Positions 2,709 through 50,309 of a stretch of 64,000 nucleotides of DNA are shown piece by piece; the stretch's first letter is position 1, and every line of letters starts with the position of its first letter. Source of the stretch: Opitutia bacterium (lineage in GTDB: Bacteria > Verrucomicrobiota > Verrucomicrobiia > Opitutales > Opitutaceae); contig JACPPI010000007.1 of assembly GCA_016190985.1 (NCBI GenBank), forward strand, positions 1-64,000, in the 5' to 3' direction. The notes under the pieces are model-generated. The model did not search any database. It was not told the DNA's origin and saw nothing but the letters and a program-made list of their open reading frames with translations. Position numbers and translations under genes: made by a program.

Positions 2709-3944
2709 CTAACCCTTGAATGTCGTCAGCAGGTCGGCGTAGATTTTGGCGGAGTCGGTCAGGTCCCTGAGCCGGGCGCGCTCGTCCACGGCGTGGTAGT
2801 CGGGGCCGCCGGGCCCGTGGCCGACGGTCGGGATTTTCAGCACTTGGGCGAAATAGTGCATGTCGTTGAACCCGGTGGAGACGGTGAACCTCGCCGGCCG
2901 GCGGCGGATGCGCGCCACACTCGACCGCATCGCGGCGAACAGCGGGTGGGACGGCGGGCGGTAGCACGAGCGGTTGTCGGAGATTTTCCCGACCGTGATC
3001 CGGCACTGCGGGATTTTCCTCGCCGCGGCGCGCAGGAAGGCGCGCAGCTCGCGCTCGGCCTCGGCGACGCTTTCCACCGGCAGCACGCGGCGGTCGATGG
3101 TGAAGCTGGCGGCGGCGGGCACGGTGTTGACCTTGCCGCCCTCGCCGGCGGAGAAGACGCCGCCGAGGTTGAGCGTCGGGCGCAGGCGGCTCCCGTCGGG
3201 CGCGCGGAAGGCGCGGCGGGCGAGCCGCCGCTTGTAGCCGTCGAGCGCGAGCACGAGCGCGGACATCTTTTCCAGGGCGTTGATGCCGGCCCCGGGCGTG
3301 GAGCCGTGCGCGGCGCGGCCATGCACGCGGACGTTGAGCCAGACGACGCCGTTGTGGCCGCAGCAGACGGCGTCGCCCTCGCCGCCCTCGCCCACCACGG
3401 CGTAGTCGGCGCGCAGTTTGCCGTGCGCTGTCACCCAGCCGGTGCCGAGCGTGCTGTCGGTCTCCTCGTCGGCGACGAAGGAGACCTCGACGTTGAAATT
3501 GGGCCGGGTGCCGGTGGCGCGCAGGGCCCTCAGCGCGAAGACGATGCTGGCAATGGCGCCCTTCATGTCGGCGGCGCCGCGGCCGTAGATCCAGCCGTTT
3601 TCGACGACGGGGTGGAACGCGCTGCCCTGCCGCCACACGCCGGAGACGGGCACGACGTCGTAGTGGGCGTTGAAGTGCAGGGTCTTTTTCGCGCCGGCGT
3701 CCCAGAAGCCGATGATATTGTAGCGTGGGAAGGCGAGCAGGTCGGGCTGGGTTTTTTTCTGGAGCGCGCGCGGCACCGGCCGGCGGCGGACCGTCAGGCC
3801 GAGGCCGCGCAGGGTGCGGGCGAGGAGCGCGGTGATCGCGCCGTAGTTCTCGCCCGGGGGATTGACCGTGCGCAGCCGGATGAGCTTTTGCAGGAAGGCG
3901 ACCAGGTCCGGCTGGTGGCGGTCGAGGTAGCGGGCGGGCGACAT
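2709..3944 (-). CDS. M20 family metallopeptidase (ArgE/DapE-like)
   Basis: The 411-residue protein carries the metal-binding pattern of M20 di-zinc amidohydrolases: HYDVVP (H94, D96), GRGAADMKG with the bridging D126, DEET with the catalytic and metal-binding acids at 160-161, and GEGGEGD. A dimerisation-domain signature (HGRAAHGSTPGAGINA) follows. Relatives include acetylornithine deacetylase, succinyl-diaminopimelate desuccinylase and carboxypeptidase G2. Nothing nearby identifies the substrate, so no gene symbol is given. It is divergent from pdxH with about 110 bases between the starts. Confidence 0.85.
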   Translation of the reverse strand: MSPARYLDRHQPDLVAFLQKLIRLRTVNPPGENYGAITALLARTLRGLGLTVRRRPVPRALQKKTQPDLLAFPRYNIIGFWDAGAKKTLHFNAHYDVVPVSGVWRQGSAFHPVVENGWIYGRGAADMKGAIASIVFALRALRATGTRPNFNVEVSFVADEETDSTLGTGWVTAHGKLRADYAVVGEGGEGDAVCCGHNGVVWLNVRVHGRAAHGSTPGAGINALEKMSALVLALDGYKRRLARRAFRAPDGSRLRPTLNLGGVFSAGEGGKVNTVPAAASFTIDRRVLPVESVAEAERELRAFLRAAARKIPQCRITVGKISDNRSCYRPPSHPLFAAMRSSVARIRRRPARFTVSTGFNDMHYFAQVLKIPTVGHGPGGPDYHAVDERARLRDLTDSAKIYADLLTTFKG

Positions 3945-4696: not shown

Positions 4697-6259
4697 ATGT
4701 CCGCCAAGAAAGCGCCCCCGGCCCCCGTCGCGCCGGCCAGCCCCGTCCCGGCTGTGCCGCCCGCGCTCGCCGCCCTCGCGGGCACCCTCGCGGGCTTCGG
4801 TGACGCCGCCGTCGTCACCCGCGACCACTGGCAGGGTGGCGGCGTGGAGATCGTGCTGGCCAACGAGAAATTCGCCGCCCTCACCGGTTATCCCGCCGCC
4901 GCGCTCCCCGGCCGGAACACGCGGCTGCTGCACGGCCCGCGCACCGACCTGGTGGTGCCGGGCGCGGCCAGCCACGACCGGCTCGCGGTGGGCGAAGGCT
5001 GGCTTTACCGCAAGGACGGCACGGAATTCTTTGGCGCCTGGAATTTCTCCCCGATCTTTTCGCAAGGCGCCCCGAGCGGCTGCCTGCTGGGCATCTACCG
5101 CGATGTCTCGGAAATCCGCCGCCTCCGCGAGGCGCTGCTCCAGTCGCAGAAACTTGGCACGGTCGGCCTGCTGGCCGGCGGCGTGGCGCACGATTTCAAC
5201 AACCTGCTCTCCATCATCAACGGTTACTGCGAGATCCTCGCCACGAAGCTGACCGGCACACCGCCGGCGCTGAAGGATTTGCAGGAGATCCACCGCGCCG
5301 GCCTCAAGGCCGCCGGGCTGGCCCGGCAGATCCTCGAGTTCAGCCGCCGGCAGGAATCCGAGGTGAAGGTCGTGAATTTCAACACGCTCGTCCGCGAGAT
5401 CGCCGAGATCATCCGGCGTGTGGCGGGCGCGGAGGTCGCGGTCGAGCTGCGCCTCGCCTCCGACCTCGGCAACGCCCGCATCGACCCCACGCATTTCCAG
5501 CGCGTGCTCCTCAACCTCTGCTTCAACGCGCAGGAGGCCATGCCGCGCGGCGGCAAGCTCACCATCCGCACCTGGAACCACCGCGTCGCGGCCGACGCCG
5601 ACCGGCGCGTGCCCGAGATGGCCGACGGGCCTTACGCGGTCGTGCAGGTCGCCGACACCGGCCACGGCATGGACGAGGCCACCCTCCGGAACATCTTCGA
5701 GCCCTACTTCACCACGAAGCGCCAGGGCACGGGCCTCGGCCTGCCCACCGTGCTTGGCATCATCCGGGAAAATCGCGGACACATCACGGCGCGCAGCGCC
5801 CGCGGCGCCGGCACGACCTTTGAGATCTACCTCCCGGAAACCCCCGAGCCCGAGGAAACCTCCGTCACCCAGCTCGACACCCTGCCCGCCATGCGCGGCA
5901 CCGAGACCCTGTTGATCGTGGAGGAGGACCGGGTGCTCCGGAAAATGATCGCCGGCATCCTCTCCACCGACGGTTACGCCGTGACGGACGCCACCACCCC
6001 CGCCGAGGCGGCCAAGAAGGTGGCGCAGGGCCTGCGCCCGCACCTGGTGCTCATCCAAAGCTGCACCGCGGAAGGCGGCGAACTCATCCGCCTGCTCCAC
6101 GCGGCCAATCCCCGGCTCCGCCTTGTCTGCACCTCGCCGCATCTTTTGCCGGTGAGCCCGCACACGGTGCCGCCCTCGGCCACGATCCATCTGCCCAAGC
6201 CCTTCGCCCTGAGCACGCTGGTCCGGGGCGTCCGCAGCCTGCTCGACGCCGCCAAGTGA
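4697..6259 (+). CDS. PAS-containing hybrid histidine kinase with a degenerate receiver
   Basis: This is a 520-residue soluble sensor kinase. After a Pro/Ala-rich N-terminus comes a PAS domain (about 40-135). Next is a phosphoacceptor helix with H165 in GGVAHDFNNLLS, then an ATPase domain with N-box LNLCFNAQEAMP, G1-box DTGHGMD and G2-box GTGLGLPTVLG. The C-terminal receiver (about 395-515) keeps the acidic pair (EED) and lysine (LPKPF). At the phosphoacceptor strand it reads LVLIQS instead of LVLLD, so it probably cannot be phosphorylated. No transmembrane segment or response regulator is nearby. Its stop overlaps the next start (GTGA), so it is co-transcribed with pdxH and the lipoate ligase. 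Confidence 0.88.
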   Translation: MSAKKAPPAPVAPASPVPAVPPALAALAGTLAGFGDAAVVTRDHWQGGGVEIVLANEKFAALTGYPAAALPGRNTRLLHGPRTDLVVPGAASHDRLAVGEGWLYRKDGTEFFGAWNFSPIFSQGAPSGCLLGIYRDVSEIRRLREALLQSQKLGTVGLLAGGVAHDFNNLLSIINGYCEILATKLTGTPPALKDLQEIHRAGLKAAGLARQILEFSRRQESEVKVVNFNTLVREIAEIIRRVAGAEVAVELRLASDLGNARIDPTHFQRVLLNLCFNAQEAMPRGGKLTIRTWNHRVAADADRRVPEMADGPYAVVQVADTGHGMDEATLRNIFEPYFTTKRQGTGLGLPTVLGIIRENRGHITARSARGAGTTFEIYLPETPEPEETSVTQLDTLPAMRGTETLLIVEEDRVLRKMIAGILSTDGYAVTDATTPAEAAKKVAQGLRPHLVLIQSCTAEGGELIRLLHAANPRLRLVCTSPHLLPVSPHTVPPSATIHLPKPFALSTLVRGVRSLLDAAK

Positions 6260-7038
6260 ACCTGCATCTCCTGCCCGTCCGCACCGCCGGCGCCGCCGAG
6301 AACATGGCGCTGGATTTCCTGCTGTTGCAGCGTTACCCGGTGCCGGCGCCGCGCTTCCGGCATTACGAATGGCGCGGCCCGGCCTGCACCTTCGGCTTCA
6401 GCCAGAAAATCGGGTTCGTCCGGGCGAATCTGCCCTCCTTCGCCAAGGCTTCGGAGGGCCCGCCCGCCGGCGAACACTTCGACCTCTGCCGCCGGCCCAC
6501 CGGCGGCGGCATCGTCGATCACCGCCACGACTGGACCTACGCGCTCGTCCTGCCGCGCGGCCACGCGCTCTACGACGGGCGCGCCGCGCAGTCCTACCGC
6601 ATCGTCCACGAAGGCCTCGCCGCCGCCCTCGCCGCGCTCGGCCAGCCGGCCGCCGTGAAGATGGAATGCGACAAGGTGGAATCCTGTGGGAGCGACCTTG
6701 GTCGCGACAAGTCGCGTGCAAGCACGCTCCCACAAACAGGCGAGGGCGTCTGCTTCCAGCGCGCCGAGCTCCACGACGTCGTGAACACCGCCACGGGCGC
6801 GAAGATCGCCGGCGCGGCGCAGAAGCGGAACAAGCACGGCCTGCTCTTCCAGGGCTCGATCGAGAAATCCGCCGTCGGCCCGGTGGACTGGGAGGAGTTT
6901 TCGCCGCTTTTTTCCGCCGCCCTGGCGCGGACGCTGGGCGCCGAGGCGCAGGAAACGCCGTGGCCCGACCTGAACGAGGACGAAGTCTCCGGCCTCATCG
7001 GGCAGTATTCCTCGCCGGAGTGGATCGAATGCCGGTAG
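6256..7038 (+). CDS. Lipoate-protein ligase A family protein
   Basis: The 260-residue protein shows the biotin/lipoate ligase fold: ENMALDFLLLQ near the start, RRPTGGGIVDH (the RRxxGGG motif), and KIAGAAQKRNKHGLLFQGSI, where the lysine of KIAGAAQ is the catalytic or lipoyl-AMP-binding residue. It should attach lipoate or octanoate to 2-oxoacid dehydrogenase or GcvH domains. The GTG start overlaps the kinase stop. Two interspersed repeats lie in frame (about residues 59-68 and 143-160) and add surface-loop sequence absent from relatives. The TAG stop is the second base onward of the next repeat element (GTAGGG). Confidence 0.82.
   Translation: MNLHLLPVRTAGAAENMALDFLLLQRYPVPAPRFRHYEWRGPACTFGFSQKIGFVRANLPSFAKASEGPPAGEHFDLCRRPTGGGIVDHRHDWTYALVLPRGHALYDGRAAQSYRIVHEGLAAALAALGQPAAVKMECDKVESCGSDLGRDKSRASTLPQTGEGVCFQRAELHDVVNTATGAKIAGAAQKRNKHGLLFQGSIEKSAVGPVDWEEFSPLFSAALARTLGAEAQETPWPDLNEDEVSGLIGQYSSPEWIECR
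6432..6459. repeat. Short hairpin repeat in frame in lipoate ligase gene
   Basis: Perfect arms GCCCTCC/GGAGGGC surround the loop TTCGCCAAGGCTTC. A second copy at 9.49 kb has a nearly identical loop but a different, still complementary stem. Here it is read through in frame and adds about nine residues (PSFAKASEG). Confidence 0.75.
6683..6736. repeat. Twin-hairpin repeat (TGTGGGAGCG...CGCTCCCACA) in frame in lipoate ligase gene
   Basis: Outer arms TGTGGGAGCG/CGCTCCCACA enclose two small hairpins, GCGAC-CTTG-GTCGC and GCGTG-CAAG-CACGC. Their loops, CTTG and CAAG, are complementary to each other. The insert keeps the reading frame of the ligase. It shares its architecture with the repeats at 7.05, 9.25 and 9.55 kb. 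Confidence 0.8.
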
Positions 7039-7086
7039 GGGCGCGCCTTGTGCGCGCCCTCGGGCGTGGACAAGCCACGCCCCTAC
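7035..7086. repeat. Twin-hairpin repeat (GTAGGGGCG...CGCCCCTAC)
   Basis: Outer arms GTAGGGGCG/CGCCCCTAC enclose GGGCGCGC-CTTGT-GCGCGCCC and GGGCGTGG-ACAAG-CCACGCCC. The loops CTTGT and ACAAG are complementary. The first arm supplies the TAG stop of the lipoate ligase gene. It ends 41 bases before the S9 peptidase start. Confidence 0.8.
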
Positions 7087-7127
7087 AAGGTTGCTTCGCG
7101 GGCCCGGTCGCCAATGCTGGCCGTCCT

Positions 7128-9224
7128 ATGAAATCCCCCCGCGTCACTGCGCTTCTCCTCACGCTGGCGTTGTCCGTGTCGGTCATTGCGGCGGACAAGC
7201 GCCCCCTCACCCCGCAGGATCTCTGGGCCGTCAAGCGCCTCAGCAGCCCGGCGGTCGCGCCCGACGGCAAATCGGTCGTGTTCACCGTCCAGGACTGGTC
7301 CATCGAGAAAAACAAAAGCACCTCCAGCCTCTGGCTCGTCGCCACCGCCGGCGGCGCCCCGCGCCGCCTGACCACGGCCGCGGGCACCGACAACGCCGCC
7401 ACCTGGAGCCCCGACGGCACGCGCCTCGCCTTCACCTCCAAGCGCGGGGACGACGAGGCCGCCGCGCTCTACGTCATGCGCACCGACGGCGGCGAACCGG
7501 AAAAAATCCTCGAGCTGCCGTTTGGCGTCTCCGCGCCCCGCTGGCTGCCGGACGGCACCGGCCTCGTGGTCGTCACCACCGTGATTCCCGAGCTGGCGGG
7601 CAAGCTCGCGAAGGAGGACCTCGCCGCGATGAAGAAGGAGATCAAGCGCCGCAAGGATTCCCAGATGACGGCCAAGGTCACCGAGCACCGCCAATACCGT
7701 TACTTCGACCACTACATCACCGACAGCGCCGCGCACCGCCTGCTAGTCGTCACGCTCGCCACCAGGGAGATCAGGGATCTCACCCCGAAGTGGGACCGGC
7801 TCTACACGGTCAGCGGCGAGGCCAACTATGACCTTTCGTCCGACGGCCATTGGATCGCGCTCACGATCAACACCACGCCCCCGCCCTACCGTGAGTTTCC
7901 CAACCACGACGTCTACCTGCTGCCGACCGACGGCTCGGGCGCGTTGAAAAACCTGACGCCCGAGAACCGCGGCGACGACACCGGCGCGGTGTTTGCCCCG
8001 GACGGCAAGTCGCTCGTTTTCGGCCGGCAGGAGACGCCCTACTACAGCGGCGAGTTCACGAAGCTCTGGCGCCACGATCTCGCGACCGGCAAGAACACCC
8101 CGCTGACCGAGGCGCTCGACTGCTCCTTCGACAACGTGAAGTTCTCCGCCGACGGCCAGACGCTGTGGGCCGCCGTCGAGTCGAAGGGCGTGGTGCCCGT
8201 CTTCCGGCTCAACGCCGACGGCACCGGCCTCGCCGCCGTGCACTCCGCCGGCACCTCCAGCAGCCTCGACCTCGCGGGCGGCATGCTGGTCTTCCTCAAC
8301 GACAACACCAGCCGGCCCAACGAGCTCTTCGCCCTCGACCCCGCCAGCGGCGCCGTGCGCCAGCTCACGCGCATCAACGACGACTTCATGGCCCAGATCG
8401 ATCTCGGCCGGGTCGAGAGCTACTGGTTCACCGGCGCGAACCACGACCAGGTCCACGGCTGGCTCGTCTATCCCCCGGGCTACGACGCGAACAGGAAGTA
8501 TCCGCTGATCGAGCTGATGCACGGCGGCCCCCACACGATGAACCGCGACAGCTGGAGCTACCGCTGGAACACCCAGTGCTTCGCCGCGCCGGGCTACATC
8601 GTCACCTGGGTCAACCGCCACGGCTCGACCGGCTTCAGCGAGCAGTTCGGCCGCAGCATCGTGAACCAGTGGGGCGACATGCCCTTCGAGGACATCATGA
8701 AGAGCGTCGACTTCCTCATGAAGAAGCTGCCCAACATCGACCCCGACCGCCTCGCCGCCGCCGGCGCCAGCTACGGCGGCTACATGGCCGCGTGGGTGCT
8801 CGGCCACACCGACCGCTTCAAGGCCATCATCGACCACGCCGGCGTGAACAGCTCCTACGCCCAATACGCCACCGACGTCCCGCACGGCTTCCCCGAGGTC
8901 ATGGGCGGCAAGCCCTGGGACAACCTTGAGGGCATGCAGAAACAGAACCCGATGTTCTACGCGAAAAACTTCAAGACCCCGACGCTCGTCCTCCACGGCG
9001 AACTCGACTACCGCGTGCCCTATGGCAACGGCCTCGAGCTCTACGGCGTGCTCCAGGCGATGGGCGTGCCGTCGCGCCTCGTGGTCTTCCCGGACGAGAA
9101 CCACTGGGTGCTCAAGCCGCAGAACGCCATCCACTGGCACTGGGAGATGCAGAACTGGCTCAGCCGCCACATCGGCGGCAAACCCGTGATCGAGAAACCG
9201 GTGTTCGACACGGAAAGCAAATAA
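7128..9224 (+). CDS. Prolyl oligopeptidase family (S9) serine peptidase, exported
   Basis: The 698-residue product starts with a signal peptide (MKSPRVTALLLTLALSVSVI ending near AA-D). An N-terminal beta-propeller of WD40-like repeats (WSPDGTRLAFTSK, FAPDGKSLVFGR, FSADGQTLWAA) is followed by an alpha/beta-hydrolase domain. The nucleophile is S548 in GASYGGYMA, the acid is probably D627 in GELDYRVP, and the base is H659 in ENHW. This is the acylaminoacyl-peptidase / DPP-IV branch of S9, which cleaves short peptides, probably in the periplasm. The TAA stop lies in the terminal arm of the following hairpin element. A strong intrinsic terminator follows. Confidence 0.93.
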   Translation: MKSPRVTALLLTLALSVSVIAADKRPLTPQDLWAVKRLSSPAVAPDGKSVVFTVQDWSIEKNKSTSSLWLVATAGGAPRRLTTAAGTDNAATWSPDGTRLAFTSKRGDDEAAALYVMRTDGGEPEKILELPFGVSAPRWLPDGTGLVVVTTVIPELAGKLAKEDLAAMKKEIKRRKDSQMTAKVTEHRQYRYFDHYITDSAAHRLLVVTLATREIRDLTPKWDRLYTVSGEANYDLSSDGHWIALTINTTPPPYREFPNHDVYLLPTDGSGALKNLTPENRGDDTGAVFAPDGKSLVFGRQETPYYSGEFTKLWRHDLATGKNTPLTEALDCSFDNVKFSADGQTLWAAVESKGVVPVFRLNADGTGLAAVHSAGTSSSLDLAGGMLVFLNDNTSRPNELFALDPASGAVRQLTRINDDFMAQIDLGRVESYWFTGANHDQVHGWLVYPPGYDANRKYPLIELMHGGPHTMNRDSWSYRWNTQCFAAPGYIVTWVNRHGSTGFSEQFGRSIVNQWGDMPFEDIMKSVDFLMKKLPNIDPDRLAAAGASYGGYMAAWVLGHTDRFKAIIDHAGVNSSYAQYATDVPHGFPEVMGGKPWDNLEGMQKQNPMFYAKNFKTPTLVLHGELDYRVPYGNGLELYGVLQAMGVPSRLVVFPDENHWVLKPQNAIHWHWEMQNWLSRHIGGKPVIEKPVFDTESK

Positions 9225-9284
9225 GGCGGGCGTCGGTTTCCACACCGACGCCAGTCGCCGATGTGGAAATCGGCGACCACCTTA
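9222..9284. repeat. Twin-hairpin repeat with 8-base complementary loops
   Basis: Outer arms TAAGGCGG/CCACCTTA (one mismatch) enclose hairpin GGCGTCGG-TTTCCACA-CCGACGCC and hairpin GTCGCCGA-TGTGGAAA-TCGGCGAC. The two 8-base loops are exact reverse complements, so a kissing-loop interaction is possible. The first TAA is the stop codon of the S9 peptidase gene. Confidence 0.85.
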
Positions 9285-9292
9285 AACAAGCA

Positions 9293-9322
9293 GGCGCCGG
9301 TGATTACACCGGCGCCTTTTTT
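9293..9322 (+). terminator. Rho-independent terminator after the S9 peptidase gene
   Basis: A 10-bp perfect stem GGCGCCGGTG/CACCGGCGCC with an ATTA loop is followed directly by six T residues. It lies about 70 bases after the S9 peptidase stop. From here to the next gene end at 9570 there is no coding sequence; the space holds two further repeats and a CCCGGGA-rich stretch of unknown role. Confidence 0.92.
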
Positions 9323-9483: not shown

Positions 9484-9509
9484 CCAGCCTTCGCCAAGCC
9501 TACGGCTGG
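9484..9509. repeat. Short hairpin repeat, second copy (CCAGCC/GGCTGG)
   Basis: Arms CCAGCC/GGCTGG surround the loop TTCGCCAAGCCTAC, almost the same as the loop of the copy in the lipoate ligase gene (TTCGCCAAGGCTTC). The stem sequence differs but pairing is kept, so the structure covaries around a conserved loop. Confidence 0.65.
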
Positions 9510-9523
9510 CACAACGGCTTTAG

Positions 9524-9584
9524 GGTGGAGCGGCCTGACCCCAGGACGCTGGCTGAAAACGCGCTGGGGTCAGCGCGTTCCACC
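9524..9584. repeat. GGTGGAGCG twin-hairpin element, copy A
   Basis: This 61-base element has ends GGTGGAGCG and CGTTCCACC. Inside are hairpin CCTG-ACCC-CAGG and hairpin GCGCTG-GGGT-CAGCGC, whose loops ACCC and GGGT are complementary. Copies B (39.2 kb) and C (50.3 kb) share the design. The element overlaps the 3' end of the GNAT gene and supplies its TGA stop, so the last residues GGTR come from it. Confidence 0.85.
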
Positions 9585-15664: not shown

Positions 15665-16697
15665 ACGCGGAGCGCCGCAGGTGGGTGATCAGCTCCGCCG
15701 TGCCGGCGGCCATCGTGACGCGGGGGGCGTAGCCGAGGTCGCGGCGCGCGGCGGAAATATTGAACCAGTGGTCCGTGGCCATTTCCTTGGCGACGAAACG
15801 CGTCATCGGCGGCTCGCCCTGCAGTGGCAGCACGCGCCACAGCAGTTCAAGCACGCCGCCCGTCGCGTAGGCGGTGCCCAGCGAGACGTGTTTCGTGATC
15901 TCCGGCGCGCCCACACCACGCAGCAATTCGTTGATCCAGTCCCAGAGGACGACCGGCTCGCCGTTGGTGATGAAATAGGCCTTGCCCCCCACGCCCGGCG
16001 GGCCGGAGCCTTTGTAACCTATTAGGTTACAAGTATGGAGGGCTTGTTCGGCGAGGAGGTGGGCTTCGACGACGTTGGAGATGTGGGTCACATCCACCTT
16101 GTTGCGGCCGGAGCCGATGATTTTGAGCCGGCCGGCTTTCGCCAGCGCGAGCACGCGCGGCACCACGTTCCTGTCGCCGGAGCCCCACACGAGGTGCGGG
16201 CGCAGCGAGACGGTCGTGAGCGCCGGGCCGTTGGCGCCGGCCACGATCTTTTCCGCGGCGGCTTTGCTCGTCGGGTAGGCGCAGGGCGCGGCGGAGCAAA
16301 GCGGTGCCGACTCGTCCACGCCCGCAAGATCCCTGCCGTTGTAGACCACGCTGGGCGAGCTGGTGTAGACGAGCCGCGGCACGCCGGCCTCGCGACAGGC
16401 GAAAACGACATTGAAGGTGCCGTGCACGTTGACCCGGATGAAATCGGCCGCCGGGCCCCAGACGCCGACTCGCCCCGCCACATGGAAAACGGTGCCGACG
16501 CCGGCGCAGCCGCGTTGGAGGGCGGCGGTGTCGTCGAGGTCGCCCGAGATAACCTCCGCGCCGAGTTTCTCCAGTTCCGGCAAAGGCCGGCGGGCGAGCA
16601 CGCGCACTTTCCGGCCGGCGGCGAGCAGCCGCTCGGCGAGTTTGCCGCCGATGAAGCCGCTGGCGCCGGTGATGAAGACGGGGGAATTATTGGCCAC
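15663..16697 (-). CDS. oleD: OleD-like NAD(P)-dependent 2-alkyl-3-ketoalkanoate reductase
   Basis: The 344-residue protein is an extended short-chain dehydrogenase of the 3-beta-HSD group. It has GASGFIGG at the nucleotide site, YPTSK (YxxxK) for catalysis, VSLRPHLVWG and DVTHISNVVEAHLLA. This pattern, with an OleC-like ligase next door, fits OleD of head-to-head olefin synthesis, which reduces the beta-keto acid made by OleA. OleA and OleB are not in the window, so the assignment rests on family and neighbour. A palindromic repeat at 16.02 kb is read in frame as TCNLIGYK. The GTG start lies in a GGCCACGGAT-type repeat. Confidence 0.72.
   Translation of the reverse strand: MANNSPVFITGASGFIGGKLAERLLAAGRKVRVLARRPLPELEKLGAEVISGDLDDTAALQRGCAGVGTVFHVAGRVGVWGPAADFIRVNVHGTFNVVFACREAGVPRLVYTSSPSVVYNGRDLAGVDESAPLCSAAPCAYPTSKAAAEKIVAGANGPALTTVSLRPHLVWGSGDRNVVPRVLALAKAGRLKIIGSGRNKVDVTHISNVVEAHLLAEQALHTCNLIGYKGSGPPGVGGKAYFITNGEPVVLWDWINELLRGVGAPEITKHVSLGTAYATGGVLELLWRVLPLQGEPPMTRFVAKEMATDHWFNISAARRDLGYAPRVTMAAGTAELITHLRRSA
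16011..16033. repeat. AT-rich palindrome, copy 2 (TTGTAACC/GGTTACAA), in frame in oleD
   Basis: Arms TTGTAACC/GGTTACAA enclose TATTA. Both arms differ from copies 1 and 3 (T to C and A to G), with pairing kept. The minus strand is translated as TCNLIGYK, the same frame as the copy at 18.66 kb (TCNIIDYK). Confidence 0.85.
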
Positions 16698-18647: not shown

Positions 18648-18678
18648 GAAATTTGTAATCTATTATATTACAAGTTTC
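18648..18678. repeat. AT-rich palindrome, copy 3 (TTGTAAT/ATTACAA)
   Basis: The 21-base core, including the CTATTAT loop, is identical to copy 1 at 2.66 kb. The outer stem differs (AGAAA/TTTCT instead of GATAA/TTATC) but still pairs. It lies between the RNase D stop and the likely oleC start, and its minus strand could be read in frame with oleC as TCNIIDYK if translation began upstream. Confidence 0.88.
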
Positions 18679-39153: not shown

Positions 39154-39215
39154 GGTGGAGCGGCCTGCCCCCAAGCCGCTTCTTCTGAAAGCGCGTTGGG
39201 GCAACGCGCTCCACC
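39154..39215. repeat. GGTGGAGCG twin-hairpin element, copy B
   Basis: Ends GGTGGAGCG/CGCTCCACC enclose GCGGCCTG-CCCC-CAAGCCGC and GCGCGTTG-GGG-CAACGCGC. The loop pair is CCCC with GGG, different from copy A but still complementary. It lies just beyond the stop of the PhoR-like kinase gene. Confidence 0.85.
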
Positions 39216-50246: not shown

Positions 50247-50309
50247 GGTGGAGCGGCCTGACCTCAAGACGCTTTCCCAAACAGCGCGTTGGGGTCAACG
50301 CGCTCCACC
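50247..50309. repeat. GGTGGAGCG twin-hairpin element, copy C
   Basis: Ends GGTGGAGCG/CGCTCCACC enclose CCTG-ACCT-CAAG and GCGCGTTG-GGGT-CAACGCGC. The loops ACCT and GGGT can pair with one G-U. The element supplies the TGA stop of the sodium symporter gene, whose last residues are GGAR. Confidence 0.85.

Follow-up and report, generated by a model that had tools for sequence, protein, structure and literature searches.

Complementary loops in three REPIN families of an Opitutia bacterium are a by-product of the inverse orientation of their halves

REP doublets forming hairpins (REPINs) consist of two repetitive extragenic palindromic (REP) units in inverse orientation around a short spacer. Among the described systems, the groups GI to GIII of Pseudomonas fluorescens SBW25 (Bertels and Rainey 2011, PMC3116915) show, in the passages that deal with them, the inverse REP doublet with its spacer, a REP-associated tyrosine transposase (RAYT) beside the matching REPINs, and compensatory changes in the hairpins. 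The same passages propose that the doublet is mobilised by a RAYT dimer in a two-hairpin "clover" fold, and the legend of Figure S11 of that paper sets one long hairpin beside this clover. Here, we analysed three elements of this kind, named A, B, and C, in a 64-kb stretch (64,000 nucleotides of contig JACPPI010000007.1, hereafter the window) from the assembly of an Opitutia bacterium (GCA_016190985.1; 2.95 Mb, 34 contigs).

A second group of related elements has been described. The GTAG REP dimers of Opitutus terrae and other bacteria (Di Nocera et al. 2013, PMC3733652) carry GTAG or GTGG tags outside the dimer, occur as homodimers and heterodimers, and show complementary stem changes, as do the elements studied here. 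O. terrae is described, in the relevant part of that paper, as highly enriched in GTAG repeats; GTGG is present in most of its GTAG-20 elements, and the GTAG-17 dimers have spacers of 1-2 bp. In PMC12306157, a search for passages on this subject gave no mention of Verrucomicrobia, Opitutus, or REPINs.

Taken as a whole, the evidence makes it very probable that A, B, and C are REPINs, that is, pairs of REP hairpins in inverse orientation, and that they belong to three families (Table 1). Once reverse-complemented, the right half of each element aligns with its own left half across arm or tag, stem, and loop: A is composed of two TGTGGGAGCG-type REPs with the family loop CTTG, B of two GTAG-tagged REPs with the family loop CTTGT, and C of two REPs with the family loop TTTCCACA. 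The stems are unequal between the halves, yet each of them is self-complementary (in A, AC..GT versus TG..CA). The GTAG-like tag expected of such elements is present as GTAG directly at the hairpin foot in B, and as GTGG two bases ahead of the stem in A. In C the tag is GGTG in 105/108 halves and GGCG in 3/108 (the left half in the window has GGCG), and it is followed by G, so that GTGG overlaps the stem. The earlier note on this DNA had reported twin hairpins with complementary loops at three places, and these can be read directly in the sequence. The loops are complementary because both halves are one REP unit turned round, and thus one loop is read once per strand.

The layout of A (GTGG, two unpaired bases, stem, and three-base tail) resembles the description of GTAG-1/GTAG-2 in PMC3733652, the comparison of A, B, and C with the numbered GTAG families being one of descriptions and not of consensus sequences. 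Unlike the SBW25 REPINs, as presented in the passages mentioned above, those studied here come from another host group and have other REP sequences. Their spacer is often very short, no longer than a few bases in the A copies of 49-50 bases and in most copies of B and C, and their halves often have different stems.

Table 1. Position and layout of the three elements and of the neighbouring features in the window
Feature	Position	Strand	Layout and remarks
Family A REPIN	6685-6734		Inverse pair of TGTGGGAGCGNNCTTGNNCGCGAC-type units; hairpins at 6692-6705 (loop CTTG) and 6714-6727 (loop CAAG); read directly
Family B REPIN, GTAG tag	7035-7086		Inverse pair of GTAGGGGCGNNNCTTGN-type units; hairpins at 7039-7059 (loop CTTGT) and 7062-7082 (loop ACAAG)
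Family C REPIN	9222-9284		Hairpins 9229-9252 (loop TTTCCACA) and 9254-9277 (loop TGTGGAAA); family marks: GGYGG foot, 8-base loop TTTCCAYA
Lipoyl/biotin ligase-family gene	6256-7038	+	PF21948, PF03099
S9-family peptidase gene	7128-9224	+	Stop codon TAA (9222-9224) coincides with the start of C (its first three bases)
G+C-rich hairpin and T run	9292-9322	+	Directly after C; putative intrinsic terminator, read by eye and not by a terminator scan

We evaluated whether such a pattern is found by chance by scanning the whole window for adjacent perfect hairpins with reverse-complementary loops (stem >=5, loop 4-8, gap 0-14) and comparing the result with 200 dinucleotide-preserving shuffles, a control that the earlier note had itself proposed. 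The scan returned exactly three places, namely A, B, and C, against a mean of 0.03 and a maximum of 1 in the shuffles; at stem >=6, two places (B and C) were found, against 0 in 100 shuffles. It could be argued that the three elements are chance GC-rich palindromes, since the G+C content is high (65.5%) and adjacent hairpin pairs at stem >=5, whatever their loops, are frequent in the shuffles as well (72, versus 107 in the window), which means that twin hairpins as such are common. However, the shuffles almost never yield pairs with complementary loops, and therefore the pattern is not due to chance. Considering also that family copies of A, B, and C exist elsewhere in genomes, we rejected chance palindromes, whose probability we regard as negligible.

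The repetition within a genome expected of REPINs was indeed found. For A, an arm-pattern search identified 31 REPINs in the bacterium's own genome. The B arm pattern, with all loop types counted, matched in 18/57 genomes searched (own included) and reached up to 56 matches per relative genome, part of which have another loop type (TTGCCC) and a few of which are probably due to chance. From the B matches listed we drew a set of 60. The subfamily with the TTGCCC loop (G005, G007, G019, and some matches of G013 and G018) was excluded from it, along with the 12 matches of genome G036, a single match of G032, and a poly-G row from G018; in one of the 60 (from G022) the right half does not fold. 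For C, strict arm patterns gave no second true copy, the sole true match being that of the window, because the window C has variant arms (TAAGG replacing the usual GGTGG context). The idea that C is a one-off was rejected, as the family was recovered by a covariance model of its half, derived from the two window halves and two halves of locus L070. With the first 150 candidates scored per genome, the best E value was <=1e-7 in 10/38 genomes, and any match at E<=1, noise included, was present in 33/38. The own genome yielded five C REPINs by reading (the window copy and L115-L118) and 21 half-matches at E<=1, noise included. The C set comprises 61 stretches, 60 of them from the top model matches, a choice that favours model-like loops; seven of the 61 do not parse as pairs (L119, L134, L155, L162, L168, L169, and L173). 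Two inverse REP units with a short spacer were thus available for analysis in 31 A, 60 B, and 54/61 C copies.

The earlier note had read the complementary loops as a conserved design, in favour of a structural requirement and against common descent. We compared the loops in these copies with a null model in which halves are re-paired at random inside each genome. Loops are exactly complementary in 16/31 A copies (17.0 expected, standard deviation 1.7), in 18/60 B copies (13.9 expected, standard deviation 2.7; P 0.09 for as many), and in 12/54 C copies (18.4 expected, standard deviation 3.2; P 0.03 for as few). No family lies significantly above re-pairing. The earlier note had also named a lack of complementary loops in most other copies as evidence against its idea; this is what B and C present, and in A about half of the copies lack them. 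Loop variants such as CTGG, CTCG, CTTGA, and TTTCCATA are seen in single halves whose partner has not changed to match. Among the 108 C halves, the loop TTTCCACA was found 46 times and the loop TTTCCATA another 46 times, so the 8-base exact match of the window is a minority state among the C copies examined.

These data bear directly on the alternative that the two loops pair with each other, either as kissing loops or as strands of one long hairpin, and that this pairing is a function selected in DNA or RNA. Exact complementarity in all three window copies is what this alternative would predict, and the excess in B points somewhat in the same direction. Moreover, in A the long hairpin is predicted to be more stable than the two local ones in 31/31 copies, and in the window copy it would pair CTTG with CAAG at -20.7 kcal/mol, versus -9.2 kcal/mol for the local hairpins. 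However, the co-variation of loops between halves that kissing loops call for was detected in none of the three sets, C has fewer matches than random re-pairing gives, and the predicted folds of the window B and C contain two local hairpins. We consider loop pairing very unlikely as an explanation. Loop-loop complementarity is not a conserved requirement: complementary loops are a by-product of inverse orientation, and the loop match reflects common descent inside each family, to which recognition of the loop by an enzyme has probably contributed.

What is conserved is found in the stems. Local stems are Watson-Crick paired at 97.7% (A), 97.4% (B), and 97.7% (C) of stem positions, versus 77.4%, 77.0%, and 63.5% when pairing is considered across the halves, which indicates that the local hairpins are what is kept. 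The stems vary by compensatory change and therefore the local structure is constrained; this is the part of the structural requirement put forward in the earlier note that stands, while the conserved loop-loop design does not.

When DNA fold energies are compared, the local fold is more stable than the cross-half alternative in 0/31 A, 36/60 B, and 46/54 C copies. Free A is thus predicted to form one long hairpin, and the window B and C two hairpins. Copies artificially made homodimers favour the local fold in 0/62 (A), 0/120 (B), and 0/108 (C) cases, as expected by construction. In C, pairs with identical stems are found in 0/54 parsed copies, where re-pairing expects 14.5 (standard deviation 3.0), and the 46 copies that favour the two-hairpin fold compare with 22.7 under re-pairing. 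It is conceivable, although we hold it only tentatively, that the C halves are kept different by selection, so that single-stranded DNA forms two hairpins readable by the transposase and not one long hairpin. The other families weigh against this possibility, as the local fold shows no such effect in A (0/31) or in B, where re-pairing gives 35.7. B has 4 homodimers (7.6 at random, P 0.11) of 2 distinct types (5.2 at random, P 0.02); A has 14/31 against 10.1 at random, hence more and not fewer, with P 0.04 for the mean energy difference. Because copies within one family are related, these P values overstate the evidence. In addition, the same picture would arise if all C copies went back to a single heterodimer founder, so selection is not established. 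As a general rule, heterodimer selection is unsupported, the effects in A and B being weak or absent. Di Nocera et al. saw no obvious explanation for why most REP families prefer heterodimers, and suggested an escape from nucleases that remove long hairpins (PMC3733652).

The earlier note had recommended looking for a RAYT-type transposase, and one was found in the own genome at locus L004 (174 amino acids), with A REPs on both sides. In total, Pfam PF01797 matched at 7 places in this genome and in 16/21 genomes of the genus. The L004 protein reaches 85.5 bits with NCBIfam NF047646 ("REP-associated tyrosine transposase", cut-off 80), and the cut-off is also exceeded at L222 (92 bits), L206 (88.4 bits), and L210 (81 bits). 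HUH-like motifs, e.g., MPDHVH and MPDHWH, were read by eye in the RAYT proteins, so both the family match and the motif expected of TnpA-REP are present. Within the same genus, B REPs flank RAYTs on both sides at L220 and L222, and C REPs do so at L203/L237; a second C-type RAYT (L238, genome G013), 62% identical to the first, likewise has C REPs on both sides. Each family is therefore found flanking a RAYT, A in the own genome and B and C in the genus. At L187, L195, L196, L199, L206-L208, L212, L216, and L219, RAYT matches of the genus have inverted REPs at their flanks that belong to additional families with loops of their own, and hence many families share the architecture. The earlier claim that one architecture is common to several families unrelated in sequence is thereby supported.

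As for the mechanism, REPINs would be non-autonomous repeats, and each family would depend, or would once have depended, on a RAYT of its own (TnpA-REP), which is a transposase of the HUH/Y1 type that acts on single strands. In single-stranded DNA each REP would fold into a short hairpin beside its tag (GTAG, GTGG, or GGYGG-like), and the enzyme, judging from the literature, may read tag, hairpin, and loop; if it does, members of one family would mostly retain their loop, and stem bases could vary provided that they still pair. The RAYT would then mobilise the REPIN. For the TnpA-REP of Stenotrophomonas maltophilia and, in the passages that treat it, that of Marinomonas, recognition of both tag and loop in a folded single-strand hairpin has been reported, and specific loop bases are needed (PMC8266576). 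The families studied here resemble these two systems, as described there, in that a predicted HUH/Y1 enzyme would act on a tagged single-strand hairpin and would need its loop bases. By analogy, we infer that the TnpA-REP and RAYT-dimer mechanism may apply to A, B, and C.

Several observations weigh against this interpretation. No movement was observed, the evidence being presence or absence at orthologous sites. B is represented by one copy in the own genome when the strict arm pattern is used. Two of the RAYTs with matching REPs, that of C at L203 (73.4 bits) and that of B at L220 (69.5 bits), stay below the NF047646 cut-off of 80. No close intact C-type RAYT was found in the own genome, in a search aimed at the C type and not at the B type. 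In genomes G012, G007, G011, and G015, which have 57-87 C matches at E<=1, a C REP was found at 0/8 RAYT loci (30 loci searched). Finally, the enzyme of Escherichia coli does not select loop bases, according to the relevant passages of PMC8266576, and thus loop reading is not universal.

The best C-type RAYT match in the own genome has 55% identity over residues 69-155 in a 93-amino-acid frame, and no C REP was found in its locus. At L216 of G012, several hundred bases separate a C REPIN from the RAYT, and this REPIN is outside the REPs that flank the latter. Between the presence of a C-type RAYT and the number of C copies we found no clear link.

As an in-frame insertion, A (6685-6738) lengthens the ligase gene from within by about 18 codons, and the orthologues at L063 and L070 lack it, with an 18-residue gap. 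L057 has a REPIN at the same ligase position (about 3592-3650) whose left half is identical to that of A but whose spacer and right stem differ; the L057 peptidase is 86% identical to that of the window. In-frame REP insertions in genes have already been reported (PMC6006769). The ligase stop codon TAG (7036-7038) is part of the GTAG of B. The nearest named relatives of the peptidase are mostly records of Opitutaceae, Opitutia, Opitutus, Lacunisphaera, or Didemnitutus. The candidate terminator that follows C has similar putative counterparts after the REPINs of L057 and L070.

We also scanned the 3' end of the peptidase gene in 26 loci (25 of 28 relative loci plus the window). REPIN-like pairs of several unrelated families lie <=40 bases from the stop codon in 7/26 loci, one of which (L069) is doubtful because of dissimilar loops; among the six sound loci, exactly complementary loops are present just in L065 and the window. 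REPINs of differing families thus occupy this spot in the window (9222) and in L057, L063, L065, L068, and L070, and it is possible that the spot is a hotspot of insertion or retention.

The fact that C begins at the peptidase stop codon and B at the ligase stop, together with the seven loci above, could suggest that the elements are kept also, or instead, as RNA devices at gene 3' ends, for mRNA protection or termination. We judge this unlikely: A sits inside coding sequence, the families are multicopy and have matching transposases flanked by the same REPs, and in 19/26 loci nothing alike is found near the peptidase stop.

Other repeats and motifs were noted in the window. A promoter-like TTTGACT lies shortly ahead of the peptidase start in 21/24 relatives (by eye); in the window (7087-7127), with the B REPIN just upstream, GTTGCTT is found where the relatives have TTTGACT. 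A small repeat, CCTTCGCCAAGGCTNCGG, is present at 6437-6454 and 9488-9505, and has 38 copies in the own genome (22 exact, 16 with one mismatch), against 0 for the reversed control. Its copy at 6437 lies within a stretch that adds 10 in-frame codons (SFAKASEGPP) to the ligase gene and that is absent in the 13 orthologues shown; the spacers of the C REPINs L115 and L144 hold sequence similar to it. An AT-rich, near-palindromic TTTGTAATCTATTATATTACAAAT-like repeat (family D12) occurs in several copies (2653-2679, 16009-16035, and 18650-18676), and a 48-base dispersed repeat starting with GGTGGAGCGGCCTG (family D8), possibly another palindromic family, is located at 9524-9571, 39154-39201, and 50247-50294.

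Overall, the observation is genuine and concerns elements of a kind already described, and what is corrected is the interpretation of the loops. However tempting that reading is, no loop-loop function has to be assumed for inverted REP dimers to have complementary loops. Three REP/RAYT families, one of them with an 8-base loop, are added in a genus rich in such systems. C, in particular, lets nature itself test why heterodimers prevail among REPs and, should its halves indeed be kept different by selection, it would provide evidence from nature for the clover fold that has been put forward for the transposition of REPINs.

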